In this document: positions 8,350-19,231 of the stretch, piece by piece | How positions within the stretch are numbered: position 1 is the first letter of the stretch | How the letters are laid out: each line of letters starts with the position of its first letter | Source: Phycisphaerae bacterium | GTDB lineage: Bacteria; Planctomycetota; Phycisphaerae; Sedimentisphaerales; SM23-30 | Length of the DNA: 32,393 bases | NCBI GenBank assembly: GCA_016342495.1 | Contig: JAEIOG010000061.1 | Span: forward strand, 1-32,393 | Direction: 5' to 3' | Notes under the pieces: generated by a model | Databases searched by the model: none | The model's input: the letters and a program-made list of their open reading frames with translations, nothing else | Told to the model about the DNA's origin: nothing | Program-made: the position numbers and the translations under genes

Positions 8350-8355
8350 CTTTTT

Positions 8356-8384
8356 ATTATATTCATATGGACCTTGCCATGCAA
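8356..8384 (-). promoter_or_regulatory. Promoter of candidate small RNA A
   Basis: Minus strand TTGCAT (8384-8379), a 17-base spacer and a perfect TATAAT (8361-8356). An inverted repeat (CATAaCATAGC / GCTATGcTATG, 8407-8435) lies about 25 bases upstream of the -35 box and could be an operator. Confidence 0.6.
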
Positions 8385-8593
8385 CAAGCTATCAATAAAT
8401 CCATTACATAACATAGCAAATATCGCTATGCTATGCACAAATCCTTTATTACCAGACACTTAAGTTAGACAACACACAACATAATCAACATTTAGTTCCA
8501 TAAATAATTTTTATCTGGTACAAAAAATATTTATAGATATAATATGAAAACTAAATAACTAACCCAGTTTACCAAGAGAAGAATAATGTATTG

Positions 8594-8699
8594 TTTTGCA
8601 ATAACAATGAATTTAACCACAAACACCTATGGCTGAGGCGGTATCCGTCGATGCTCGTGTCGAGTATCAGGTTCCTCTGGGATGTTATTGCATAGCAAA
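8594..8699 (+). promoter_or_regulatory. Structured 5' leader, candidate riboswitch
   Basis: A 10-bp closing stem, TGCAATAACA (8597-8606) with TGTTATTGCA (8683-8692), encloses 76 bases. Inside are two compact hairpins: GGCGG/CCGTC (8637-8649, loop TAT) and an eight-pair stem GATGCTCG/CGAGTATC (8650-8668, loop TGT), plus a possible ACCT/AGGT pairing (8625-8628 with 8669-8672). It lies in the leader of an ABC importer/selD operon and just before a perfect terminator, the normal layout of a transcription-attenuating riboswitch. A TATAAT at 8538-8543 could be the -10 box. I compared it from memory with TPP, molybdenum cofactor, glycine, cobalamin and guanidine classes and found no match. Confidence 0.55.
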
Positions 8700-8764
8700 A
8701 ATAAATAGCCATATTTCGAGCATATATTCCATTCGAGCCTGAAGCTATACAGCATAAAATCGAC

Positions 8765-8795
8765 GGGTAATGATTGATATCATTACCCTTTTTTT
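8765..8795 (+). terminator. Attenuator terminator before the ABC importer operon
   Basis: GGGTAATGAT (8765-8774) pairs perfectly with ATCATTACCC (8779-8788) around TGAT and is followed by seven T. It sits 37 bases before the first start codon, downstream of the structured leader, so it would control read-through into the operon. Otherwise it ends a leader small RNA. Confidence 0.85.
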
Positions 8796-8832
8796 ATGAA
8801 AATACCCCCCAAAATCGAAAGGAATCATAAAA

Positions 8833-9975
8833 ATGAAGAAACTATTATTAACCTTAATATGCATTTCAATGTTCATCACCGGATGCTCAAAAGAAACTGA
8901 ACCTCAGGGTTCTACTGAAATTAAACCTGTCGAACTAGCCTTGGGCTATGTCAAGCACGACCATCATCTGGCTTTGTATGTCGCGGCAGAAAATGCCGCT
9001 GAATATACCAAAACCAGCAATATCGAATTGAAAACAGTAAAAGATAAAGAACGCTATGAATTATCGGAGGCTGGCACCAAAATTGCCAATGTGCAGATTA
9101 GTGATGTACCTGGCGGGGCAAAAATGCCTATCGCTCTTAAAACCGGAACCATCGAATTTGGCTTTGGTGGCGTAGCTGCAATTCTGGCCGCCATCGATAG
9201 CGGGGTTCCCATCAAGATTGTTGCCCCACTTCATTATAAAGGTGATATGTTTGTAATGACCCCGGACAGTCCGGTCAACAATTGGCAGGATTTTGTCGAT
9301 TTAGTCAAAAAATCTGACAAACCCATCCGCATAGGCTACAAAAGCCCAATGGCCGTTGCTAAAGTTATATTTCAACAGGCACTGGAACTTGAAGGCATTA
9401 AATATGGAGATGCCGACACTGATTCTGTTCAGGTCAGACTTATCTGTACCCAGGGAGGCGGCAAATTAAATGTCGCCCTGCAAAATGAGATAATCGATGG
9501 CTATGTTGGTAATAACCCTTTTCCAGCTATTGGCATGGAAAAGAAAATCTTAAAGGTTATCTGTGACCTTGAAACCCTGCCACCGGGCAATTTTCTCAAT
9601 CATCCATGCTGCTGTCTGGCGGCTACCGAAGAAGCTATCAAAAATAAACCACAAGCCATCGCCGCGATGCTGGCATTATTCATACAGGCCAATGAAACAA
9701 TCAATTCCGACCTGGATAAATCTGTCGCCGCGGCAACCAAATGGCTGGGAACTTCCGAAGCTGTAGAAAAAATTTCAATTCCGACCAGTGGCTATTCCAT
9801 GGAAAACACTGACCAGTGGAATCAGACCATGAAAACCTGGGTAGATGAAATGGATAATCTCGGCCTGTTTGAAGGAAAACTCAAAGGCAAATCTTACGAA
9901 AATGCATCAAAGATGTCCTATGATTTTTCATTGCTGGAACAAGCCAATAACAAACTCAATAACTCAACTGAGTAA
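8833..9975 (+). CDS. ABC importer substrate-binding lipoprotein (NMT1/TauA-like)
   Basis: A 380-residue lipoprotein: the signal peptide ends in a lipobox ITGC at Cys18, so it is anchored outside the inner membrane. The rest matches the periplasmic binding fold of nitrate/sulfonate/taurine and thiamine-precursor importers (ALKTGTIEFGFGGVAAI; an IRIGYKSPMAV hinge). It captures a small substrate for the permease and ATPase that follow. An unusual HPCCC motif lies at residues 257-261; related proteins, as I recall, have HPCC. The triple cysteine could bind a metal, thiol or selenium compound, but that is inference. The start follows AAAGGA. Being directly behind a leader/attenuator, it is likely regulated by a small ligand. 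Confidence 0.85.
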   Translation: MKKLLLTLICISMFITGCSKETEPQGSTEIKPVELALGYVKHDHHLALYVAAENAAEYTKTSNIELKTVKDKERYELSEAGTKIANVQISDVPGGAKMPIALKTGTIEFGFGGVAAILAAIDSGVPIKIVAPLHYKGDMFVMTPDSPVNNWQDFVDLVKKSDKPIRIGYKSPMAVAKVIFQQALELEGIKYGDADTDSVQVRLICTQGGGKLNVALQNEIIDGYVGNNPFPAIGMEKKILKVICDLETLPPGNFLNHPCCCLAATEEAIKNKPQAIAAMLALFIQANETINSDLDKSVAAATKWLGTSEAVEKISIPTSGYSMENTDQWNQTMKTWVDEMDNLGLFEGKLKGKSYENASKMSYDFSLLEQANNKLNNSTE

Positions 9976-9976
9976 T

Positions 9977-10819
9977 ATGCAAAAAACCAAAAATGACATC
10001 TTATTAAAATTGGCTGGTTATATATTGACCCCTGCGATTTTGCTTTTAATCTGGCAATTGACAGCATCAATATATAACAAGCCTTATATGTATCCAACCT
10101 TTACCGCGGTCTTAAAGCAGTTGACCAATCCCTGCCAGGATCATTACACTCTCGGTTCGCTTATGAGCAATACCGCCATCAGCTTATTAAGAGTGGCAAC
10201 CGGATTTATCATAGCTGCGATTGTTGGCATTAGCGTTGGGCTGGCCCTTGGCACCTCAAAAATCCTTTGCAGATTATTTGAACCGGTAATCGAAATAATC
10301 AGACCATTATGCCCGATTGCCTGGATGCCCTTCGCTATTGCGATTTTTAAACTCAAAACCATCCCTAATATGATCGGAATGGGCTATACCAATACCGTTT
10401 TTGACCAGGTACAGCTCAGCATGATCTTTATATTATTTATGGGTGGCTTCTTTCCGATTATGACAAATACCCTTGATGGGGTCATCGGTGTCAGAAAAAA
10501 TTATCTCATTCTGGCCCAGGCACTAGGTGCTAATCGCAGACAGCAATTCTTCCATGTCTATCTTCCCGCAGCTATGCCCATGATCTTAACGGGTTTAAGA
10601 CAAGGCCTGGGTTTATGCTGGTTTGTCATTATCGCGGCAGAAATGACCATCGGAGCCGACAGCGGCATTGGCTATATGCTAATCTATGCCGCCGATCTTT
10701 CCGATATGGATATCGTGGTCGCGGCCATGATGATTATCGGCACCATTGGCGCTACACTCAATTTCGCTATGAGATCAGCCATGCAGACTTTTGTCAGTTG
10801 GCACGGAAAGGAAGTGTAA
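9977..10819 (+). CDS. ABC importer permease (NitT/TauT type)
   Basis: A 280-residue inner-membrane protein with about six hydrophobic segments, starting with ILTPAILLLIWQLTASIY. The permease EAA loop is visible near ALGANRRQQFFHVYLPAAMP (about residues 180-200), the docking site for the ATPase. It forms the translocation channel for the upstream binding protein's substrate. The ATG at 9977 lies one base after the preceding stop, so translation is probably coupled. The frame stays open 44 codons upstream, but those codons overlap the lipoprotein gene and do not look like a membrane-protein start. Confidence 0.88.
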   Translation: MQKTKNDILLKLAGYILTPAILLLIWQLTASIYNKPYMYPTFTAVLKQLTNPCQDHYTLGSLMSNTAISLLRVATGFIIAAIVGISVGLALGTSKILCRLFEPVIEIIRPLCPIAWMPFAIAIFKLKTIPNMIGMGYTNTVFDQVQLSMIFILFMGGFFPIMTNTLDGVIGVRKNYLILAQALGANRRQQFFHVYLPAAMPMILTGLRQGLGLCWFVIIAAEMTIGADSGIGYMLIYAADLSDMDIVVAAMMIIGTIGATLNFAMRSAMQTFVSWHGKEV

Positions 10820-10820
10820 T

Positions 10821-11567
10821 ATGCAAAATTGTGTAACAATCAAAAACCTGCATAAAACCTACGTAACCGAAGTCGGCAATAAAGTTAAAGCTTTATCCGA
10901 TATCAATCTCCAAATCGCCCAGGGTAAATTTGTCACATTACTGGGCCCCACCGGATGCGGTAAAAGCACAATTCTCAATACCATCGCCGGTTTAATTAAA
11001 CAGGACAAAGGCCAGATACAGTTAGATAACAACCTGGCTTTCGGCAAAAATATCGCTTCGGTTTTCCAGCATTATACTTTATTGCCCTGGCGAAATGTCA
11101 TAAAAAACGTAACTTTTTCCATGCAAATGCAGGGAATAAAAAGAAATCTGCGTAACCAGCAAGCCGCCCAGCTACTCAATGAAGTAGGACTGGATGGTTT
11201 TGAATATTCCAAAATCCATGAACTCTCCGGCGGCATGCGACAAAGGGCCGCTATCGCCCAGGCACTGGCATTAAAACCGGAATTATTACTGATGGACGAA
11301 CCTTTTGGCGCCTTAGATGAGATCACCCGCAGCGACTTACAGCAAATGCTGATAAAGCTTTGGCAATTACATAATATGACCACCATATTTGTCACTCATA
11401 GCATTGATGAAGCTTTGATTTTAAGCGATCAGATAATCGTACTGAGCGGCCGCCCCGGCAAAATCATTAAAAAATATGACATAACCCTGCCTCGCCCCCG
11501 TAACAAACTCAGCAAAGAATTCACCGATCTTTTTATTGATGTCAGAAAAACATTATCCCAGAACTAA
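10821..11567 (+). CDS. ABC importer ATPase (NitT/TauT type)
   Basis: A 248-residue nucleotide-binding subunit with all motifs intact: Walker A GPTGCGKST (42-50), Q-loop VFQHYTLLPWRN, signature LSGGMRQR, Walker B LLLMDEP (Asp159, Glu160), D-loop GALD and switch His in FVTHS. It powers uptake through the adjacent permease. The ATG at 10821 follows GGAAG and lies one base after the permease stop. The family powers uptake of nitrate, sulfonates, taurine, riboflavin or thiamine precursors, so the ATPase does not settle the substrate. Confidence 0.93.
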   Translation: MQNCVTIKNLHKTYVTEVGNKVKALSDINLQIAQGKFVTLLGPTGCGKSTILNTIAGLIKQDKGQIQLDNNLAFGKNIASVFQHYTLLPWRNVIKNVTFSMQMQGIKRNLRNQQAAQLLNEVGLDGFEYSKIHELSGGMRQRAAIAQALALKPELLLMDEPFGALDEITRSDLQQMLIKLWQLHNMTTIFVTHSIDEALILSDQIIVLSGRPGKIIKKYDITLPRPRNKLSKEFTDLFIDVRKTLSQN

Positions 11568-11584
11568 ATAAAATATTCGGGTGG

Positions 11585-11612
11585 CAATGTTCCAGATACG
11601 GCTGGAGCATTG
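11585..11612 (+). other. 11-bp hairpin in the ABC-selD gap
   Basis: CAATGTTCCAG (11585-11595) pairs with CTGGAGCATTG (11602-11612) around ATACGG, with a single T-G wobble. It stands alone in the 85-base gap before selD. A second CATTG (11631-11635), followed by six T, could compete for the 5' arm. It may stabilise the upstream mRNA or tune read-through to selD. Confidence 0.6.
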
Positions 11613-11652
11613 GAGAATGAAATTCATCCATTGTTTTTTGTTGGAGAAAAAA

Positions 11653-12957
11653 ATGAATAAGATAGATACTCAGCGTAGAAAACGTGTCATGAGCCGTTCG
11701 ATAAAACTAGGCCATTGCGTCTGCAACCCGGCCCAGCCTTGCCCTTGCGAGCAGTTCAAGAAAATGGATATCTGCGCCTGTGCCGGCGAACGCCCCGCAA
11801 GCCCCAATGGCAAAGTCGAATTAACTAAAACAGTTGAAAAGCCCGGCTGTGCCTCCAAGATTGGCCAAAAGTTTCTAAAAGACACACTGGGCGACCTGCC
11901 TCATTATGCAGATAAAAATGTATTAGTTGGCGTAGCCGCTGGCGATGATGCGGGCATCTATGATATGGGCAATGGCACCGCACTGGTCCAAACTGTTGAT
12001 GTCTTTACCCCTTCGGTTGATGACCCTTATACCTTTGGCCAGATCGCCGCGGCCAACTCCGTCAGCGATGTCTATGCCATGGGCGGCAAACCCTTAACCG
12101 CCCTGTCGATCATCGGTTTCCCCGTCGGGACAATTCCCGATAACGCTTTGCGGGAAATCCTCCGCGGTGGCATTGACAAAATGAAAGAAGCCGGCGTCTC
12201 GATCATCGGCGGTCATTCCATCAATGACCCCCAAACCAAAGCCGGATTTGCCGTTACCGGTATCATAGATACCAAGAAAATCAAAACCAACTCCACTGCC
12301 CAAAAAGGTGATGTATTAATCCTGACCAAACCTCTTGGTACTGGCATTATCGCCTTTGCCCACCAGATAAACCGGGCCAGCCAGAAAAGCATCGACGCCT
12401 CCGCTAAAAGCATGACCACCCTGAATAAAACCGCCTGTGAGCTAATGCTAAAATTTAATGCTAATGCCTGCACCGATGTCACCGGTTTCAGTCTCATGGG
12501 TCACCTCAAAGAGATGGCTACCACCAGCAAGCTCAATGTCGAGATTATCTGGGACAAACTGCCCTGGCTGCCGGGTGTTTTGGATTATGCCGCTGCCGGA
12601 ATGCTGCCCGGCGCTATCGAACGCAATAAAGAATCTTCGGCCCATAAAGTAACTACCGGAAAAGATGTTACCGAAACCATGGCCGATATGTGCTTTGACG
12701 CCCAAACCTCCGGCGGACTGCTGATCGCTATCGATAAAGCCAAAGCCAATGAGTTCCTGGCCAGACTTCACGCCAAAGGCATAGCCGATGCCGCCATTAT
12801 CGGCCATTTCAAAACCGAAGGATCAGGCCAGATATTTATCAAAACTGATAACACCAGAAAACTACCTGAAAAAGGAAATAATAAGAAAAATGAAAGCTGT
12901 TGCAGTTCAAAAGAATCAAGTTGTTGTGGTGGCGACAGTGGTAATGGCTTTATATAA
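11653..12957 (+). CDS. selD: Selenophosphate synthetase with Cys-rich extensions
   Basis: A 434-residue selenide, water dikinase, which makes selenophosphate from selenide and ATP for selenocysteine or selenouridine. The SelD core starts near residue 57, with the active site GCASK (Cys66, Lys69, matching Cys17/Lys20 of the E. coli enzyme) and the ATP/metal segments GDDAGIY and TVDVFTP. The N-terminus is extended by three CxC pairs (Cys22/24, 30/32, 41/43), spaced like a small metal- or selenium-binding domain. The tail ends in CCSSKESSCC. Both additions could hold selenium or a metal; this is inference. The ATG at 11653 follows TTGGAG. It lies 85 bases after the importer ATPase in the same direction, probably in the same operon. 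No selA, selB or tRNA-Sec is in the window. Confidence 0.92.
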   Translation: MNKIDTQRRKRVMSRSIKLGHCVCNPAQPCPCEQFKKMDICACAGERPASPNGKVELTKTVEKPGCASKIGQKFLKDTLGDLPHYADKNVLVGVAAGDDAGIYDMGNGTALVQTVDVFTPSVDDPYTFGQIAAANSVSDVYAMGGKPLTALSIIGFPVGTIPDNALREILRGGIDKMKEAGVSIIGGHSINDPQTKAGFAVTGIIDTKKIKTNSTAQKGDVLILTKPLGTGIIAFAHQINRASQKSIDASAKSMTTLNKTACELMLKFNANACTDVTGFSLMGHLKEMATTSKLNVEIIWDKLPWLPGVLDYAAAGMLPGAIERNKESSAHKVTTGKDVTETMADMCFDAQTSGGLLIAIDKAKANEFLARLHAKGIADAAIIGHFKTEGSGQIFIKTDNTRKLPEKGNNKKNESCCSSKESSCCGGDSGNGFI

Positions 12958-13016: not shown

Positions 13017-14615
13017 ATGATAAGAATAACAGATACTGCCCTTGCCTTTGACCACAAAGAACAATTGCTGATTCAAAGGATAATAAAGCTCCTTGGCATT
13101 AAACCCGCTGATATGCTTTCCTATACGATCATCCGCCGGGCTATTGACGCCCGACATAAAAGTAATATCATGGCGGTCTACACCATCGATGTCGCTGTTA
13201 TTGATGAAGCGGCCATCCTGGCAAAATTTGATGCCAACCCCAAGATCAAACCGGCCCCGGATATGCAATATCAAATGCCCCAGGCGGTAAAGCCTGCCGA
13301 AAAACCTCCAATTGTTGTCGGTAGCGGTCCTTGCGGGCTCTTTATCGCATTGCTTCTTGCTCAACTGGGCCTAAAACCAATCATGATAGAACGCGGCAAG
13401 GATGTACAATCCCGTATCGCAGATATTAACAGATTCTGGCGTGATGGCATCCTCGATACCGAGTCCAATGTCCAGTTCGGTGAAGGCGGAGCCGGCACTT
13501 TTTCTGATGGCAAACTCACTACCCAAATCAAAGATAAGCTTAACCGATCCCGTAAAGTCTTAACTGAATTTGTCAAGGCCGGAGCCCCTGAAGAAATCCT
13601 TTATCAGGCCAAGCCCCACATCGGTACCGACAACCTGATCCGTATCATAAAGAACATTCGCCAGGAAATCATCAACCTTGGCGGTCAGGTGCGTTTCCAA
13701 ACCCAACTGACCGGCATCGAAACCGCCAATGGCCACATCACCGCCGCTATTGTTAACGACAACGAAACAATACCAACCGATGCGATAGCCCTGGCTCTGG
13801 GCCACAGCGCCCGGGACACCTTCGAAATGCTCCATGCCGCAGGTATCGCCATCGAAGCTAAACCATTTGCTATCGGCGTACGTATCGAACATCCCCAGTC
13901 AATTATCGATAAAGCTCAATATGGCAAGTTTGCTGGCCACCCATCCCTCGGTGCCGCCGAATACAAACTCGTTCACCATTGTGCCAATGGTCGCAGTACC
14001 TACACCTTCTGCATGTGCCCCGGTGGCAAGGTCATCGCCTCATCATCTGAGGCCGGCCACCTGGTAACCAATGGCATGAGTTATTATAAACGCAACTGCG
14101 ACAATGCCAATAGTGCCCTTCTGGTAGGAATAAAGGTCGAAGACTTCCCCAGTGACCACCCCTTAGCCGGAATCGAGTTCCAGCGCCAATGGGAAGCTGC
14201 CGCTTACCGGCTCGGCGGGAGCAATTACCATGCACCTATCCAATTAGTCGGCGATTTTCTGGCCCATCGCCCATCAACAGTCATCGGCACCGTCAAACCC
14301 AGCTACGCACCCGGTATAACACCCTGCGACCTGGCCGGCTGCCTGCCCGAATACATCATTAAAACTATAAGAGAAGCTCTACCGCAACTGGATAAGAAGC
14401 TCAAAGGCTTTGCCATGGCTGATGCGGTGATGACTGCCATCGAATCACGTAGTTCAGCCCCGCTTCGAATACTCCGCGACAAAGAAACCCTCCAGTCTGT
14501 CACTACCAAAGGCCTCTTCCCCGCCGGCGAAGGCGCTGGCTATGCCGGAGGAATCATCTCCGCGGCTATCGATGGCATAAAAATCGCCGAAGCAATTACC
14601 AATTTATCTGATTAA
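13017..14615 (+). CDS. FAD-dependent dehydrogenase, COG2509 type
   Basis: A 532-residue flavoprotein. A short N-terminal domain (about 1-90, with SYTIIRRAIDARHK) precedes a Rossmann FAD site, VVGSGPCGL (GxGxxG at 102-107) ending at Glu in IMIERG. The family block FGEGGAGTFSDGKL follows, and a C-terminal FAD contact is FPAGEGAGYAGGI. It belongs to a widespread, poorly characterised group annotated as FAD-dependent dehydrogenases; the substrate is unknown. It lies 59 bases after selD, with a weak ribosome site, and may be co-transcribed. A redox role linked to selenium or sulfur chemistry is suggested by position only. It is not preceded by its own terminator. Confidence 0.85.
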   Translation: MIRITDTALAFDHKEQLLIQRIIKLLGIKPADMLSYTIIRRAIDARHKSNIMAVYTIDVAVIDEAAILAKFDANPKIKPAPDMQYQMPQAVKPAEKPPIVVGSGPCGLFIALLLAQLGLKPIMIERGKDVQSRIADINRFWRDGILDTESNVQFGEGGAGTFSDGKLTTQIKDKLNRSRKVLTEFVKAGAPEEILYQAKPHIGTDNLIRIIKNIRQEIINLGGQVRFQTQLTGIETANGHITAAIVNDNETIPTDAIALALGHSARDTFEMLHAAGIAIEAKPFAIGVRIEHPQSIIDKAQYGKFAGHPSLGAAEYKLVHHCANGRSTYTFCMCPGGKVIASSSEAGHLVTNGMSYYKRNCDNANSALLVGIKVEDFPSDHPLAGIEFQRQWEAAAYRLGGSNYHAPIQLVGDFLAHRPSTVIGTVKPSYAPGITPCDLAGCLPEYIIKTIREALPQLDKKLKGFAMADAVMTAIESRSSAPLRILRDKETLQSVTTKGLFPAGEGAGYAGGIISAAIDGIKIAEAITNLSD

Positions 14616-14779
14616 AACCTTGAAATACTGACAAATTCAGCGATAATAAACTGGTCTTTTGGCTCAGGCAACAGAAATATCTGCCTACAAATCCCGGCAT
14701 CTGTTTGCTCAGCGTATTTCAGACAGCAGCAAAGATATTATTTTTTCAGAAATTTATCAATATTACCGGAGTTGACAAA

Positions 14780-15976
14780 ATGCTTTCTAACATACACATC
14801 AAAAAACTCGCTATCTTAACTATTGTCCCTATATTAACATTTGCAATCACTGCCTGCGGTCAGCCCACAGCTAAAGATTATGTTCAATTTGATGATATGT
14901 TATTTAAAACAAATGTCATCGGCACCAAAAGTGCTTTTTCGGCTACCCGCTGGACCAATGGTATTGTTTATTATGAATTTGACAGCAATGTATCGGCCTC
15001 AAATAAACTGATATGGCTAGACGCAGCCCAGCAATGGGCAAATGTCTCTGACCTGCATTTTGTCGAAAGAACTACTCAATCAAATTATATTCATGTCCAG
15101 GATGATGACGGCAACTGGTCTTATGTTGGGATGATTGGCGGCAAACAGGAGATGGGTATATATAACTGGAATTATAAATTTATCGTTGCTCACGAAATTG
15201 GCCATGCAGTCGGCTTAATGCACGAACATTCCCGACCCGACCGCGATGATTACGTAACAATTCTCTTTGAAAATATTATCGAAGACAGAGAATCCAATTT
15301 CGAAATCCGTTCTGCTGACATCTATGGCCAATACGACTTTTATTCGGTAATGCATTACGACAATAAGGCTTTTTCTTCCAATGGTTTAAATACAATTGAA
15401 CCACTACCTGCATATTCTTCGATGTTAAATGTCATGGGCCAACGCACCTATTTAAGCGATCTGGATAAATCAGGCATGAATGACAGGTATCCCAATCTGG
15501 TAATCGGCAATATTTCTGTTACACCCAAAAACTCTTCTACGACGCCACCGACAGTTTCTGGCACCGTAACTGTCTCTGCAACCATTATCGATAATGACAC
15601 CATTACCGCTGAATTATTTGTCGATGACATACTTGTTGGCCCGATGACCAATATCTCAGGCGATACTTTTTCACTCCAATGGAATACCATATATTCAACC
15701 GGTGGCACTAAAACTATCAAAATAATTGCCACCGATGACAATGGTAATACCTCCAGCTCAACTTATCAGGTAATTGTCGATGCCCCAAATCCCGACATCG
15801 ATAATGATGGTAAAGTTGACCTCAATGATTTCTCTCTGCTGGCCAGCAGTTGGCTAAAATCAAACTGCAGAAGACAAAATCAATACTGCAATGGCATTGA
15901 TATCGACGAATCTGGAAAAGTTGACTTACCGGACATGGAAATAATAGCTGCCAACTGGATGTATGGCACCTACTAA
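14780..15976 (+). CDS. Astacin-like zinc metalloprotease with dockerin-like tail
   Basis: A 399-residue exported protease. A lipobox (ITAC) suggests a lipoprotein. The M12A catalytic core has the zinc site HEIGHAVGLMHEH (His138, Glu139, His142, His148), the RPDRDDY continuation and the Met-turn SVMHYD (Met191, Tyr193), all complete. After about residue 240 comes an Ig/cadherin-like domain. The protein ends with two calcium-binding dockerin-type repeats (DIDNDGKVDLNDFSLLA and DIDESGKVDLPDMEIIA). It cuts peptides outside the cell. The ATG at 14780 follows CCGGAG; an upstream in-frame ATG at 14705 has no ribosome site and would spoil the signal peptide. It lies 164 bases after the FAD gene, and belongs with the other exported enzymes rather than with the selD operon. 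Confidence 0.9.
   Translation: MLSNIHIKKLAILTIVPILTFAITACGQPTAKDYVQFDDMLFKTNVIGTKSAFSATRWTNGIVYYEFDSNVSASNKLIWLDAAQQWANVSDLHFVERTTQSNYIHVQDDDGNWSYVGMIGGKQEMGIYNWNYKFIVAHEIGHAVGLMHEHSRPDRDDYVTILFENIIEDRESNFEIRSADIYGQYDFYSVMHYDNKAFSSNGLNTIEPLPAYSSMLNVMGQRTYLSDLDKSGMNDRYPNLVIGNISVTPKNSSTTPPTVSGTVTVSATIIDNDTITAELFVDDILVGPMTNISGDTFSLQWNTIYSTGGTKTIKIIATDDNGNTSSSTYQVIVDAPNPDIDNDGKVDLNDFSLLASSWLKSNCRRQNQYCNGIDIDESGKVDLPDMEIIAANWMYGTY

Positions 15977-16016: not shown

Positions 16017-19231
<3,215 letters not shown>

Follow-up and report, generated by a model that had tools for sequence, protein, structure and literature searches.

What controls the operon for an ABC importer and the selenophosphate synthetase SelD in the window (the whole 32,393-nt stretch of DNA analysed here), and which signal would its structured leader read? 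The preliminary description proposed a transcription-controlling riboswitch, with a selenium or sulfur metabolite as a possible ligand or, alternatively, a known class in divergent form. A structured leader with a terminator before the importer/selD operon, likely to control transcription, was upheld, as was the connection with selenium (SelD is encoded downstream, and the leader contains an in-frame UGA with a SECIS-type element), whereas the metabolite-binding part of the interpretation was not.

The structured leader and the operon behind it

The leader extends on the forward strand from about 8550 up to the start of the substrate-binding protein (SBP) gene at 8833, and its fold between 8570 and 8800 has a z-score of -3.2 against shuffled sequence. 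All of the pieces named in the preliminary description were found. The 10-bp closing stem, which joins about 8597-8606 to 8683-8692, appears when 8585-8705 is folded (z = -2.7; 1 of 200 shuffles was equally good), though translation from 8586 would melt it. The eight-pair internal hairpin lies at 8650-8668, and the intrinsic terminator is a perfect 10-bp stem-loop at 8765-8788 (loop TGAT, -13.0 kcal/mol), followed by a run of seven U at 8789-8795. The -10-like box TATAAT at 8538-8543 marks a putative leader promoter; a promoter scan gave no signal above chance there, and a promoter-like match inside the terminator (8774-8803) is also at chance level. The terminator is one of four terminator-like sites in 8350-8900, where 0.2 would be expected, and it stands, as in a ribosome-mediated attenuator, before the first structural gene, 37 nt separating the U run from the SBP start. 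Rfam 15 yielded no match to the leader at the gathering score and only chance-level matches at E-values up to 10.

The operon begins with an NMT1/SsuA-like substrate-binding lipoprotein of an ABC importer (8833-9975; PF13379, 64 bits; SsuA_fam and SaoX below cut-off), followed on the same strand by the permease (9845-10819; PF00528; SaoP/NtrB-like below cut-off), the ATPase (10791-11567; PF00005; SaoA/TauB-like below cut-off), SelD (11581-12957; TIGR00476, 367.9 bits, cut-off 125) and an FAD-dependent oxidoreductase (13017-14615; PF21688, 279 bits), which may be the last gene of the operon. The N-terminal extension of SelD contains ...GHCVCNPAQPCPCEQF.... SelD also has a Cys-rich tail, and the extension, with ...SRSIKLGHCVCNPAQPCPCEQFKKMDICACAGE..., is common to the SelD of genome G077. 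Beyond the selenium operon lie genes for an astacin-like metalloprotease (14705-15976) and a LacZ-type beta-galactosidase (16091-19231).

UGA codon and SECIS-type hairpin of the leader reading frame

Because a search with the SBP protein yielded few relatives, the leader itself was used as the query. blastn against related genomes returned recurrent matches to its central 38 bases in regions coding ...TTC GAG TAT GGC TGA GGC GGC ACA TGC TCG TAC TCG TGG CGA GTA CC..., that is, F E Y G U G G T C S Y S W R V P, with an in-frame UGA and a hairpin at a fixed distance. The window leader aligns without gaps to UGA/SECIS regions of this family (FEYGUGGTCxYSWRVP) from the same taxonomic order, and the matched genes are evidently selenoprotein genes with a bacterial SECIS. 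Pfam gave no significant match to four example stretches of the family. Members often occur in several copies per genome (L013, L015-L020 and L076-L252; for example, L019 around 2060).

The leader ORF at 8586-8708, MYCFAITMNLTTNTYG[U]GGIRRCSCRVSGSSGMLLHSKNK in translation with TGA as U, comprises 40 codons and is open once the UGA at 8634-8636 is read as selenocysteine; it is matched by both blastn and the covariance model to selenoprotein UGA/SECIS regions. A second in-frame ATG lies at 8607, and the start codon and Shine-Dalgarno sequence are weak. The UGA is in frame with the YG-U-GG of the homologues and is presumably decoded as selenocysteine in the window leader as well. The SECIS-type hairpin, GAUGCUCG-UGU-CGAGUAUC, has 8 bp and a UGU loop, occupies 8650-8668 and begins 14 nt after the UGA. 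It aligns with the family helix, in which four of eight pairs are altered on both sides and, in the attenuator set, 99.5% of cells are paired. The internal hairpin of the preliminary description is a SECIS-type element, matched codon for codon in selenoprotein genes. As in the SECIS of bacterial selenoprotein genes, it lies just 3' of an in-frame UGA and carries a G in its apical loop; unlike those, it would double as an antiterminator strand, in a leader ORF without evident protein function.

The genome of the window encodes SelB (336 bits), tRNA-Sec (73.6 bits) and SelA (541 bits), each above cut-off, and thereby, with SelD, the complete set of SelA, SelB, tRNA-Sec and SelD. The covariance model of the UGA/SECIS element (R1) matched 57 of 161 genomes of the same order and 55 of 397 genomes of the class, and under a stricter cut only 6 of 392 genomes of a phylum-wide draw, the surveyed genomes being mostly incomplete assemblies. 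The window's own genome has four other strong R1 matches besides the leader.

Mutually exclusive pairings and their recurrence

Element A (AUCCGUCGAU, 8643-8652), the 5' strand of the antiterminator core, begins just after the UGA and overlaps the 5' arm of the SECIS; element C (AUCGACGGGU, 8759-8768), the 3' strand, overlaps the foot of the terminator, and a homologous element stands in the same place at 38 loci. The two are complementary at 10 of 10 positions (duplex -14.0 kcal/mol). A complement to C would arise by chance with P = 0.00065 at the place of A fixed by homology and with P = 0.08 if every 10-mer in the ORF is allowed, so that the window by itself is not proof of the pairing. Formation of A:C cuts the terminator from -13.0 kcal/mol to a 6-bp hairpin remnant of -2.4 kcal/mol, and a longer antiterminator uses up the 5' arm and loop of the SECIS; because the antiterminator takes both this arm and the terminator foot, it and the pair of SECIS and terminator are mutually exclusive. 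In the complete RNA, the state with SECIS and terminator reaches -55.8 and the alternative, an extended rod spanning 8643-8768, reaches -49.2; in RNA ending at C the rod is favoured (-44.9, against -39.0 with the SECIS forced). The terminator form is more stable at equilibrium without a ribosome, and antitermination would therefore be kinetic. Although the conserved Cys codon has been lost in the window and in G395, both retain the pairing; the window does so by way of two compensatory changes, one from C-G to U-A and the other from G-C to A-U. Beyond the 9-nt core, the window extension is out of register, with 2 of 9 pairs, and a bulged rod does the equivalent job in the fold.

A first automatic attenuator filter returned 50 loci, about 18 of which would be expected by chance, and was superseded by a test in which the strong terminator was picked regardless of pairing in 59 family loci. 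Nine of nine bases paired with the terminator foot in 14 of these loci and at least eight of nine in 30, where shuffled A in the same loci would give 0.25 and 5.5, respectively. Furthermore, the nine bases 5' of C, which were not used in selection, paired with the remaining SECIS arm and loop at 6.6 of 9 positions on average (shuffled, 3.6; maximum of 1000 shuffles, 4.4). Folding of RNA ending at C formed A:C and abolished the SECIS in 28 of 29 loci, a set curated by removing five weak positives by hand and adding four loci found previously; exclusive antiterminator and terminator helices, as in ribosome-mediated attenuation, are thus seen in the window and in 28 of 29 homologues. Column-shuffle tests of covariation in the antiterminator were not significant (at best 57 of 500 for the 9-bp core and 27 of 500 for 18 bp), because most rows are near identical. 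The support for the switch therefore rests on complementarity, position and the slid controls, in which 33-45% of positions paired compared with 84% at the true register.

Two further loci may carry variant attenuators, namely G288:C429:11903+, with an A/C pair GCUGCGGGU/ACCCGCAGC at +332, and G000:C217:19585-, with CUUGUGGGU/GCCCGCAAC at +116.

The architecture recurs at 38 loci (29 curated and 9 from a rescan) in 23 genera, two of them in another class of the phylum; the counts are not independent, since the loci are related by descent. The terminator lies mostly tens of bases from the gene behind it. At most loci, the genes downstream on the same strand encode porin-SBP(-permease) importers, SelD, or a methyltransferase with a double-cubane reductase (NF040772, 411 bits, cut-off 350). 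SelD follows directly in G077 and G109, and a sodium symporter (G395) and an ABC ATPase (G048) occur once each. The importer leaders L003/G370 and G002, picked by their genes before the pairing filter, both carry the element. The association of 2-hydroxyglutaryl-CoA dehydratase-type proteins with selenium genes by function (PMC5322559) fits the double-cubane reductases downstream of the attenuators. As read from sequence, the attenuators L254 and L261, of another class, precede genes for a corrinoid protein and a uroporphyrinogen-decarboxylase-like methyltransferase, neighbours that may point to methyl transfer as part of the selenium pathway.

At 27 of the 38 loci, the reading frame 5' of the UGA stays open as far as the analysed stretch goes, in three of them up to a contig end, which is what a whole selenoprotein would show. 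The other 11 have reduced leaders of 40-100 codons, which would be expected if the end of a selenoprotein gene had been reduced to a regulatory leader: the window 40, G395 53, G013 54, G033 57, G448 58, L023 61, G419 62, L212 62, G358 69, G444 80 and G370 100. These short forms retain the UGA, SECIS, A, C and terminator, the remainder of the protein being gone, and in G358 and G444 the short leader directly follows an intact copy. A UGA-containing ORF with its SECIS is thus found at all 38 loci and is short, like the window ORF at 8586-8708 and as in ribosome-mediated attenuation, at 11.

The same selenoprotein gene lies about 60 nt before selD without an attenuator at G207:C247, G108:C128, G090:C35, G144:C102, G232:C90, G217:C292 and G173:C124, in other families of the class; this is perhaps the ancestral arrangement.

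Probable selenocysteine sensing and its alternatives

The architecture of the attenuator is well supported, with the UGA-containing ORF, the SECIS, the exclusive pairings, the terminator, the gene context and the recurrence all apparent at the level of sequence. Since the hairpin is a SECIS-type element after an in-frame UGA, the regulatory input is most likely selenocysteinyl-tRNA and SelB together with translation of the leader. We infer the polarity and function, and consider it highly likely that the leader is a selenocysteine-sensing transcription attenuator, OFF when Sec-tRNA is plentiful and ON when it is scarce. In cells, the switch would operate according to the following scenario. 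The leader mRNA would specify a short peptide whose UGA codon (Sec) is accompanied by its SECIS. When Sec-tRNA is plentiful, SelB-GTP-Sec-tRNA would hold the SECIS and the ribosome would read through the UGA, making A unavailable, so that no antiterminator arises, the terminator forms and the importer/SelD operon is OFF. When Sec-tRNA is scarce, the ribosome would be released at the UGA, leaving the bases of A free; the antiterminator would form once C is transcribed, and RNA polymerase would continue into the operon. The net effect would be repression of selenium uptake and SelD synthesis by selenium.

The polarity might instead be opposite. Insertion of selenocysteine would then clear the ribosome from the region and allow the antiterminator to form again in its wake (ON with selenium), and a ribosome waiting at the UGA would mask A and let the terminator form (OFF without). 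Going by the established ribosome footprint, a ribosome with the UGA in its A site would cover the first bases of element A. The full-length ORFs end +85 to +100 past the SECIS, some 20 nt ahead of C, so that a ribosome reaching the stop would have cleared both SECIS and C. However, the window departs from this spacing, with about 50 nt from stop to C, SelB binding opposes an antiterminator that takes the SECIS 5' arm and loop, and an importer and SelD would be expected to be induced by shortage; we regard this polarity as unlikely. SelB might also repress through the SECIS alone, favouring the terminator without leader translation in a manner comparable to E. coli selAB. The exclusion between SECIS and antiterminator and the weak ribosome-binding site of the window would suit such a site, but a pure SelB site has no need of the UGA and the open frame through it that the short loci retain, making this reading quite unlikely.

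It is very unlikely that there is no switch at all and that the leader is a decayed selenoprotein gene, or the end of one, with an ordinary terminator before an operon with its own promoter. This would agree with the weak column covariation and with most relatives being long selenoprotein-type ORFs followed by a terminator. Nevertheless, the 37 nt from the U run to the SBP start are too short to hold a promoter with its leader, the corresponding gap is about 20-50 nt at several other loci, terminators that follow other members of the family, four of them in the window's own genome, have no complement to A, and the short forms keep every part of the switch, some right behind an intact copy. A new class of metabolite riboswitch would explain a structured leader with a terminator and no Rfam match, yet the UGA codon, the SECIS and the antiterminator account for the conserved part, and no further conserved aptamer-like core was seen in the relatives; this ordinary riboswitch reading was rejected and is extremely improbable.

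The selenocysteine attenuator shares with trp/his/leu leader-peptide attenuation a short leader ORF with the regulated codon, alternative antiterminator and terminator helices, and a biosynthesis or uptake operon downstream. It differs in that the window leader would read the 21st amino acid through a single UGA requiring SelB and SECIS, in that the decoding element is itself the antiterminator strand, and in that failure at the codon would mean release at a stop rather than stalling only. With metabolite riboswitches and T-boxes that act on an intrinsic terminator, it has exclusive antiterminator and terminator helices in common, but no aptamer core was found and the proposed sensor is translation and SelB, not direct binding of a ligand or tRNA by the RNA. 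Thanbichler and Bock are said to have described, in 2002, a SECIS-like element in the 5' region of the E. coli selAB mRNA that gives feedback by Sec-tRNA/SelB. That element resembles the present one in placing a SECIS ahead of a selenocysteine-pathway operon; it reportedly acts on translation initiation, with the SECIS at the translation start and no terminator/antiterminator or leader ORF, whereas the window has both a UGA ORF and a terminator.

To our knowledge, no cis-acting transcription switch that reads the selenocysteine-decoding event itself has been known before, and this one, if true, would be the first. No earlier report of a Sec-codon attenuator was found in the literature searched, which covered few subscription papers, and two reviews of prokaryotic selenium use (PMC9312934; PMC13188914) mention neither attenuation nor riboswitches; as far as seen, the attenuator is real and undescribed. 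We think it likely that Sec-dependent transcription attenuation, with the SECIS as the switch strand, is a widespread selenium-control device of the Sedimentisphaerales-like order and its relatives, which would have arisen as the 3' part of a selenoprotein gene shrank to a leader peptide retaining only UGA, SECIS, antiterminator and terminator, and which stands before several selenium-related operons. The control of selenium uptake and SelD in bacteria is poorly understood, and the element offers a testable handle on it. Furthermore, it marks likely selenium-metabolism operons, namely those for the porin/SBP importer, the methyltransferase with the double-cubane reductase, the sodium symporter and the corrinoid methyltransferase pair.
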